Source of the DNA: Chryseobacterium sp. CH25
GTDB taxonomy: Bacteria; Bacteroidota; Bacteroidia; Flavobacteriales; Weeksellaceae
Direction: 5' to 3'
Assembly: GCF_004119455.1 (NCBI RefSeq)
Contig: NZ_NRQT01000009.1
Span: forward strand, 62,001-126,000
Length of the DNA: 64,000 bases
Below, in pieces: positions 48,993 through 50,445 of the stretch (position 1 is its first letter; each line of letters begins with the position of its first letter). A program made the translations under genes and the position numbers. The notes under the pieces are model-generated. The model was not told the origin of the DNA and searched no databases. It worked only from the letters and a program-made list of their open reading frames with translations.

Positions 48993-49064
48993 GGCTGCAT
49001 AGTTTAATGGATAGAACTTCGGATTTCGGCTCCGACAGTGAGGGTTCGAATCCTTCTGCGGTCA
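48993..49064 (+). tRNA. tRNA-Arg (anticodon UCG)
   Basis: Full cloverleaf: acceptor GGCTGCA / TGCGGTC (two G-U pairs), D arm GTTT-AATGGATA-GAAC, anticodon arm TCGGA-TTTCGGC-TCCGA with anticodon TCG at 49026-49028, variable CAGT, T arm GAGGG-TTCGAAT-CCTTC, discriminator A at 49064. CCA is not encoded. It reads CGA codons (and other CGN by wobble after modification). Confidence 0.95.
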
Positions 49065-49065
49065 C

Positions 49066-49094: not shown

Positions 49095-49156
49095 TTTTCA
49101 TTATAATGCCCCAATAGAGCATAGATTACCTTCATTAGTATAAAATTTCATAAGCA

Positions 49157-49187
49157 TTTGGTGATTAGTTTTATTTAATTATATTTG
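49157..49187 (+). promoter_or_regulatory. Consensus promoter of the GG-leader peptide gene
   Basis: TTTG at 49157-49160, 19-bp spacer, TATATTTG at 49180-49187: the best match to the Bacteroidota consensus in the window. The leader to the ATG at 49233 is about 40 nt. Confidence 0.8.
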
Positions 49188-49232
49188 GATAAGAACAAAA
49201 TGTTCTAAAAAACTAATAATTAATAAATAACT

Positions 49233-49406
49233 ATGAAAAATCTAAAAAGAATTACACGAGACAGTATGAAATCAATCAAGGGTGCGGGGCCTGTTTATTG
49301 TAGAGTAGGCTATATCTATAGATGTGACTCTATTTACGTATGTGATCCTGATCAGGGTATTTGGGATTGCGTTTGTGGATGTGTTCCTGTAACCGGACCT
49401 ATGTAA
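49233..49406 (+). CDS. Six-cysteine GG-leader (bacteriocin-like) precursor peptide
   Basis: A 57-residue peptide. The leader MKNLKRITRDSMKSIKGAG has the K-N-L-K-x-I-x-R-x-x-x-K-x-I-x-G form of Chryseobacterium bacteriocin-like peptides, whose double-glycine-type end is cut by C39-peptidase ABC exporters. The core from P20 (PVYCRVGYIYRCDSIYVC, then DPDQGIWDCVCGCVPVTGPM) has six Cys (C23, C31, C37, C46, C48, C50) and no Ser/Thr-rich tract, pointing to disulfides rather than lanthionines. Own consensus promoter and terminator. No modification enzyme or exporter is nearby, so secretion must use genes elsewhere. Role unproven. Confidence 0.8.
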   Translation: MKNLKRITRDSMKSIKGAGPVYCRVGYIYRCDSIYVCDPDQGIWDCVCGCVPVTGPM

Positions 49407-49448
49407 TTGATATCTTATACAGAATATCAGTTTATAAAATATACAATT

Positions 49449-49478
49449 AAGCCTTCTCTTTGAGAGGGTTTTTGTTTT
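49449..49478 (+). terminator. Terminator after the peptide gene
   Basis: CCTTCTC / GAGAGGG stem (one G-U pair) with TTT loop, then TTTTTGTTTTTT, about 45 bp past the stop. Confidence 0.75.
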
Positions 49479-49492
49479 TTACATCACTGCCG

Positions 49493-49602: not shown

Positions 49603-50445
49603 TTATTTTGGATAAACCGTTGCAATAAACTGCTTATCTGTTGGAGATAAAACTGTATTGCTGCCAACACTGAATCCGTTTGTAGTTAGCGTTGAGCTGA
49701 TACTGTAATGCATAATAGACTGTGTATCATAAGCACTATACTGTGTTTGCGAAGTTGAATATTTTGCAAAAAGGTTGTTGTCTACCTGAGCCTGAGTCCA
49801 GTAGTTTGGAGCTCCTGCATAATAAGCATATACTTTTGGCTTATCCCATGGAATAGCAGCTAGAGGATGCTGGTGTTCGTGGATCATTCCAAGAGCGTGA
49901 CCGAATTCATGAATAACAGTTCTGCTGAATTCAGTATCACTTGTTGAATCATTAAACCAGCCGAAGTTCATGGTTTCTTTATTAGAAGCTATACTAAGAG
50001 CATCTTTTCCAATATATGAATAAGATCCGGCACCGGATGTAAATGTCACACGAATCTGTGGTGTTCCAGTTGTAACAAAATTAAAAGTAATATTGGCATA
50101 TTTGGACCATTCTTTGGCATATTGTATTACCTTATTGCGAACATAGGTGCTGCCACCGTAAAGACCTACAGTGATAACGCTGCCATTTGTCCATTTTTTG
50201 CTGGTAATAACAGCTCCTTTTGAAGCTGCTCCTGGAGCTGTATCTTCTCCTGGAAGATAAACATCTTTACACATCTGTGTATTTTCAAAGCCGGCAGGGA
50301 TATCTCCTTGAGGGATTGCCAGTAATCCTGAAAGTGATTGCTGCTCCTGAGGGGCTTTTTCATCTACACTGTCATTTGTAGTGTTACATGATACTAAAGC
50401 CATTGAAATAAATGATCCTAATAAGATCTTCTTGTGTAGTTCCAT
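49603..50445 (-). CDS. Astacin-like (M12A) metalloprotease lipoprotein
   Basis: A 280-residue metzincin with a lipoprotein signal (KILLGSFISMALVSC, lipidated C20) and a propeptide-like region up to about 80. The zinc site is HEFGHALGMIHEHQHP (H179, E180, H183, H189) and the Met-turn SIMHYSI follows near 245, so the catalytic machinery is complete. Such proteases cut extracellular peptides and proteins. It is convergent with the six-Cys peptide gene. The RR/HK genes upstream are on the same strand but 512 bp away. Membrane-anchored extracellular location is likely. Confidence 0.92.
   Translation of the reverse strand: MELHKKILLGSFISMALVSCNTTNDSVDEKAPQEQQSLSGLLAIPQGDIPAGFENTQMCKDVYLPGEDTAPGAASKGAVITSKKWTNGSVITVGLYGGSTYVRNKVIQYAKEWSKYANITFNFVTTGTPQIRVTFTSGAGSYSYIGKDALSIASNKETMNFGWFNDSTSDTEFSRTVIHEFGHALGMIHEHQHPLAAIPWDKPKVYAYYAGAPNYWTQAQVDNNLFAKYSTSQTQYSAYDTQSIMHYSISSTLTTNGFSVGSNTVLSPTDKQFIATVYPK

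Follow-up and report, generated by a model that had tools for sequence, protein, structure and literature searches.

Between a tRNA-Arg gene, which has its own terminator and lies on the 5' side, and a gene for an astacin/matrixin-like metalloprotease on the 3' side, the window (the whole 64-kb stretch of DNA that was analysed) contains a short gene for a peptide made up of a leader and a core with six cysteines (Table 1). The cysteines are spaced C-x7-C-x5-C-x8-C-x-C-x-C, so that both the open reading frame and the spacing given in the original prediction were reproduced, and the terminator assigned to the gene was recovered as a hairpin downstream of it. No exporter, oxidase, modifying enzyme or immunity gene adjoins the peptide gene. 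The neighbouring metalloprotease is probably a lipoprotein.

Table 1. Features of the peptide locus, in window coordinates
Feature	Position	Strand	Basis or remark
tRNA-Arg gene	48993-49065		
Unit of about 340 bp (promoter, gene, terminator), also at G000:C210:402304-402661	49140-49479	+	Own copies 84% over 342 bp; no common flanks
Bacteroidota-type promoter: TTTG (49157-49160), N19 spacer, TATATTTG (49180-49187)	49157-49187	+	Motif scan; conservation of TATATTTG
Palindrome AGAACA-AAA-TGTTCT directly past the -7 box	49192-49206	+	Conserved among the closest genes
Peptide gene, including stop codon	49233-49406	+	57-aa ORF; purifying selection
18-aa leader with terminal GA, member of NF047798 (leader_Chryseo)	49233-49286	+	NCBIfam 32.6 bits, cut-off 23.5
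39-aa core with six cysteines (7-5-8-1-1) and a net charge of -2	49287-49403	+	Six Cys in 33/33 family rows
Intrinsic-terminator-like hairpin	49449-49471	+	Terminator scan
Metalloprotease gene, astacin/matrixin-like	49603-50445	-	

Relatives of the peptide (E<=1e-8) are present in 28 of the 118 genomes of the genus, those of Chryseobacterium contaminans, C. jejuense and C. pennae among them. The family alignment of 33 rows includes the window peptide, its own-genome relatives and one locus that has no start codon at the matched place (L114), and some of its rows are identical or nearly so; all six cysteines were retained in every row, with the spacing 7-5-8-1-1 in 27 rows, 7-5-7-1-1 in five and 7-5-8-0-1 in one. 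Absence of these cysteines from all relatives had been named as one outcome that would refute the earlier reading, and the alignment shows the opposite. Comparison with eight relatives gave dN/dS values of 0.08 to 0.24, at dS values (1.08 to 1.72) so near saturation that the ratios are rough and only their lowness is meaningful. Judging by these comparisons, the window gene is a real gene under purifying selection. Flanking DNA is common to the window locus and four of the 11 loci with which it was compared (G086, G006, G038 and G017), and the second copy in the same genome, on contig C210, shares flanks with two of the 11 (G056 and G054). The promoter, gene and terminator thus recur as a unit at two unrelated loci of one genome, as if the unit were a mobile cassette. 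A protein-level search of a plasmid collection with the window peptide gave no match. A search of solved structures with the peptide returned six matches up to E 10, the best of which, the designed repeat protein 7ong (E 6.5e-7), we take to be a repeat artefact because no single stretch passes on its own.

The leader (MKNLKRITRDSMKSIKGA) had been described as GG-type, and this holds for its overall pattern: it scores above the cut-off of NF047798 and has hydrophobic residues at -4, -7, -12 and -15, the first three of which mark the double-glycine-type substrates of C39 exporters. Its terminal residues, however, are GA (or GAG) and not GG. NF047798 (leader_Chryseo, 'bacteriocin-like protein'), of which the window leader is a member, covers only 18 leader positions and is silent on exporter, oxidase, core class and function. 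In residues 1-24 the leader region also resembles the CCPGW family of putative bacteriocins (NF047792; E 0.013), but with 15.5 bits where the cut-off is 80 the peptide is not a member.

Searching the whole genome (5.08 Mb in 254 contigs) with NF047798 gave 74 leader matches at E<=10, 48 of them above the curated cut-off, and thereby the further leaders that had been expected. We analysed 71 of these peptides, setting aside two long frames and one frame of 24 residues. The window contains neither C39 match of the genome and no second NF047798 match, so the gene is an orphan in its neighbourhood, as had been proposed, but not in its genome, where it is one of about 71. Most sister leaders share its hydrophobic pattern (64 of 71 at -4, 51 at -7, 63 at -12 and 47 at -15), and their genes occupy many genomic contexts. 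The number of core cysteines is even in 68 of the 71 peptides (P 2.5e-17 for a fair coin) and in 47 of the 48 above the cut-off, and one of the three odd counts (C210:290601) arises from a leader/core split that our script misplaced. Cysteine accounts for 14% of the residues in the cores and occurs in the leader of only three peptides. Even counts, together with cores rich and leaders poor in cysteine, are what disulfide pairing predicts. Most of the cores are neutral or acidic, unlike cationic antimicrobials, and the 71 peptides display 59 distinct cysteine-spacing patterns. One framework, C-x5-C-x4-CC-x3-C-x4-C, is found in five of the 71, clustered at G000:C111:1155138-1156462 (in L071), with a sixth peptide of similar spacing close by; its order, C-C-CC-C-C, is that of cystine-knot peptides.

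The sequence TTTG-N19-TATATTTG, which we take to be a promoter of the Bacteroidota kind, ends 45 bases upstream of the ATG of the peptide gene. It had been called near-perfect and the best promoter of the window, and it is indeed the sole exact match there, but 0.94 such matches are expected in dinucleotide-matched random sequence of 64 kb; because an exact consensus should occur about once in that length, the claim is weak when taken alone. The -7 box is probably real, since TATATTTG is conserved upstream of 20 of the 32 genes of the peptide family, the window gene counted in. A scan for sigma-70 promoters upstream of the gene found none. Upstream of the 71 leader genes of the genome, TAnnTTTG is enriched (19 occurrences against 6.9 +- 2.7 in shuffles), and an excess of the strict two-box promoter is unconvincing (4 against 0.7, with a shuffle maximum of 4). 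Arms of five to six bases of the palindrome that follows the -7 box are retained in all nine of the closest genes (the window gene, the C210 copy and L090-L096), L097 has a paired change (AGTAC/GTACT), and no palindrome with arms of five was found in L098 or L099. From this pattern the palindrome is possibly an operator or a hairpin at the 5' end of the mRNA. Only the tRNA reached the Rfam gathering score between 48900 and 49600, so the window gene has no known RNA leader in that interval.

The same Rfam scan found no DUF805b RNA (RF02914, cis-regulatory) upstream of the window gene. Elsewhere in the genome this RNA has 18 matches, 12 of them above the gathering score, and in 12 of the 18 it lies directly before a GG-leader peptide (L168, L171, L173-L176, L178, L180, L181 and L183 are such loci), one of these, recognized by eye, being of another leader type. 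A peptide with another GG-like leader and a DUF805b RNA before it (L178, G000:C22:132223) is encoded about 7 kb from the weak C39 match of the genome (L063, C22:138919). Among the best 30 DUF805b loci of the 118 genus genomes (L189-L218), our script placed 19 before leader peptides and inspection by eye added one (L193). The DUF805b RNA may be a marker for a secreted-peptide regulon.

Export by a distant C39-type transporter had been proposed for the peptide, and the genome search agreed with this in giving one strong C39 match outside the window (a 733-aa frame, E 9e-37) beside one weak match (a 146-aa frame, E 3e-5); export itself is a prediction. The strong match is a C39-peptidase ABC exporter encoded on contig C44. 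Leader peptides flank it, pieces of an HlyD adaptor gene lie downstream, and upstream there is a gene for a 502-aa VKOR-thioredoxin (VKOR-DsbA) protein in which PF07884 and PF13462 both score above their cut-offs. Six cysteines of this oxidase (175, 187, 254, 257, 366 and 369), which form the loop pair of VKOR and two CxxC motifs, are invariant in 16 rows. The HlyD gene consists of two overlapping open reading frames in the assembly (L070:8899-10196, minus strand), and it is intact at 19 of 20 loci of relatives, the twentieth (L152) having neither C39 nor HlyD. Export may thus be broken in this strain, or the assembly may be wrong.

Exporter, oxidase and leaders are distributed together across the genus. 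VKOR is present in 110 of the 118 genomes, and the remaining eight are exactly those without a C39 match better than E 1e-30. At least one leader match was found in 107 of the 110 genomes with VKOR, whereas seven of the eight without it have none and one (G088) has a single match (Fisher P 1.8e-8, kinship ignored). Among the C39 matches listed, VKOR lies within 8 kb of C39 in at least 103 of the 110 genomes, a count that omits some secondary VKOR rows. The three genomes that have VKOR and C39 and no leader match are G029, G053 and G090; the VKOR of G053 is divergent (22% identity, with most of the N-terminal domain missing), and a filter that was positive in two control loci found no GG-leader cysteine frames near the exporter of any of the three. 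Many genomes of the genus have several C39 genes, up to seven, so the picture of one exporter fits the window's own genome best.

We found that the oxidase begins with a domain that resembles the peptidase domain of the exporter. An AlphaFold model of this N-terminal domain alone, built from 20 rows (the divergent L164 was left out of 21), has a pLDDT of 81, and in a Foldseek search of the PDB all 15 matches at E<=1e-3 were exporters with a C39 or C39-like peptidase domain, or such domains by themselves, including ComA, LahT with a leader peptide, PCAT1 and HlyB. Structural alignment with the PCAT1 peptidase domain (VIA-align) gave Z 11.8 and an rmsd of 2.6 over 108 aligned residues, and hhalign comparison of 16 rows from across the phylum with C39 exporters gave E 4.6e-12 and a probability of 97.6. 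Other comparisons were weaker: hhalign fell short of significance when 21 close rows were used (E 0.029, probability 1.7), the Pfam C39 model scored the oxidase at 12.4 bits, below its cut-off of 22, and the full-length model (pLDDT 72) matched PCAT1 only weakly (rank 48, TM 0.15). The domain has no CGP motif, and its alignment begins at C39 residue 25, past the DCGPT of the strain's own exporter; the catalytic cysteine is missing because the domain starts after its position. An HPxxP motif (H24, P25, P28) is invariant in 16 of 16 rows. The modelled fold and the profile comparison together indicate that the oxidase N-terminus is a degenerate C39 domain. Leader binding is the role of this fold in known C39 enzymes, as in the complex 6mpz, and on this ground we propose that the oxidase would read leaders too.

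Parts of the arrangement extend beyond the genus. In a family-level sample, 107 of 246 genomes and eight of 33 genera have leader matches, and the C39-like oxidase domain was found in 35 of 395 genomes of Bacteroidota, representing nine of 170 genera. Within the DNA examined at 15 distant Bacteroidota loci, a C39 exporter is present at no fewer than ten, and candidate GG-leader cysteine peptides lie nearby on the same strand at 13, a count from a loose ORF filter with no null beside it.

By gene content, leader and cysteines, bacteroidetocins are the closest of the known systems tested. These class IIf peptides are reported to have a GG leader of 15-16 residues and, in bacteroidetocins A and B, four cysteines; the peptide is encoded in one four-gene cluster together with its C39 exporter, a 5-TM protein and a thiol oxidoreductase, an immunity gene is lacking, and activity is weaker once the oxidoreductase is lost (Coyne 2019, PMC6671954). 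Both systems belong to Bacteroidota and combine a short GG-type leader, a small core with cysteines that are paired there and predicted to pair here, a C39 ABC exporter and a thiol oxidoreductase, without an immunity gene. They differ in that the window peptide has an 18-residue leader ending in GA and a core with six conserved cysteines, that its exporter and oxidase lie on another contig and would serve some 70 dispersed genes in trans instead of forming one cluster, and that the oxidase is a VKOR-DsbA fusion to which a C39-like domain is added. Since leader length, leader ending and cluster features do not fit, we regard the Chryseobacterium system as a variant of the bacteroidetocins and not as a member. 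The exporter is of the same kind as the PCATs and class II bacteriocin exporters (ComA, LahT, PCAT1), and the oxidase N-domain has the fold of PCAT1, ComA and LahT and of the C39-like domain of HlyB; in contrast to the PCATs and HlyB, that fold is here fused to a VKOR-DsbA oxidase and has lost the catalytic cysteine. The oxidase in turn has the VKOR and thioredoxin domains, the loop cysteine pair and the two CxxC motifs of VKOR-DsbA fusions of other bacteria, from which it differs by the additional N-terminal C39-like domain and the linkage to GG-leader peptides. The peptide had been suggested to belong to an uncharacterised class, which overstates the case, since NF047798 exists and bacteroidetocins have been published. 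In the open-licence literature, a body outside which most subscription journals lie, we found no paper on this leader system, on a C39-VKOR fusion or on DUF805b upstream of peptides.

Given the observed conservation of the gene, the family to which its leader belongs, the presence of a single strong exporter, the co-distribution and the domain architecture, our best overall explanation, which we hold to be probable, is that the window gene codes for a precursor from which a small secreted peptide is made that is exported and oxidized in trans, with the oxidase reading its leader, and that acts outside the cell. The C39 peptidase domain of the exporter on C44 would cut the leader after GA; exporter and HlyD adaptor would export the window peptide and its roughly 70 sisters; and the membrane oxidase encoded beside the exporter would join the six cysteines in three disulfides. 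That a dispersed arsenal of peptides is exported and oxidized in trans in this way is, on sequence evidence, quite likely. The novel part, in which the degenerate C39 domain of the oxidase would bind the same leaders and so direct oxidation to those substrates, we put forward tentatively. Should the dead protease domain indeed be a leader reader, disulfides would form only in peptides with C39 leaders, shortly before or during export, and one exporter-oxidase pair would mature a fast-diversifying, knotted arsenal encoded all over the genome; this too is conceivable more than probable, as is the corollary that the arsenal is arranged like the venom peptide families of animals, with one leader and many cysteine frameworks. 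The mature peptides would act extracellularly, most plausibly against competing bacteria, by analogy with the bacteroidetocins; as the final function, we give antagonism somewhat less than an even chance.

The same export and oxidation could instead produce signals that are sensed by the producer's own population, a reading with which the acidic or neutral cores, the strong conservation of the window member across species and the lack of an immunity gene beside it would agree. Yet bacteroidetocins are reported to kill although they too have no immunity proteins, the peptides have no linked pair of receptor or regulator genes, and the spacing patterns of one genome are more diverse than a code normally needs, and so we consider signalling unlikely. 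Improbable, in our estimate, is also a RiPP whose cysteines are altered, to thioethers or otherwise, by an unlinked enzyme. GG leaders do occur on modified RiPPs, and in chryseobasin, another RiPP of Chryseobacterium, a DUF692 enzyme is reported to modify the cysteines; against this, the even cysteine counts and the oxidase linked to the exporter fit disulfides, and no modifying enzyme was found in the neighbourhood of the window gene. The CxCxC motif at the C-terminus might suggest an intracellular metal-binding peptide that is never exported and keeps its thiols reduced, which the canonical C39 leader and the co-distribution with exporter and oxidase make very improbable. Finally, it is hardly credible that the peptide is secreted to inhibit or otherwise partner the adjoining metalloprotease: many small peptides rich in disulfides are protease inhibitors, the two genes adjoin and other species share the locus, but the C210 copy has different flanks and 70 sisters lie in many other contexts.

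Under the explanation we favour, export and oxidation in trans with a leader-reading oxidase, what appeared to be a lone 'bacteriocin-like' open reading frame becomes part of a system that spans the phylum and can be tested, in which one exporter and one oxidase serve dispersed GG-leader peptides. If leaders are indeed read by the C39-like domain of the oxidase, bacteria can let the substrate guide where disulfides form, and the common leader would become a tag for producing disulfide-rich peptides. The system also offers some 70 candidate peptides per genome, in dozens of cysteine frameworks, for activity screening.
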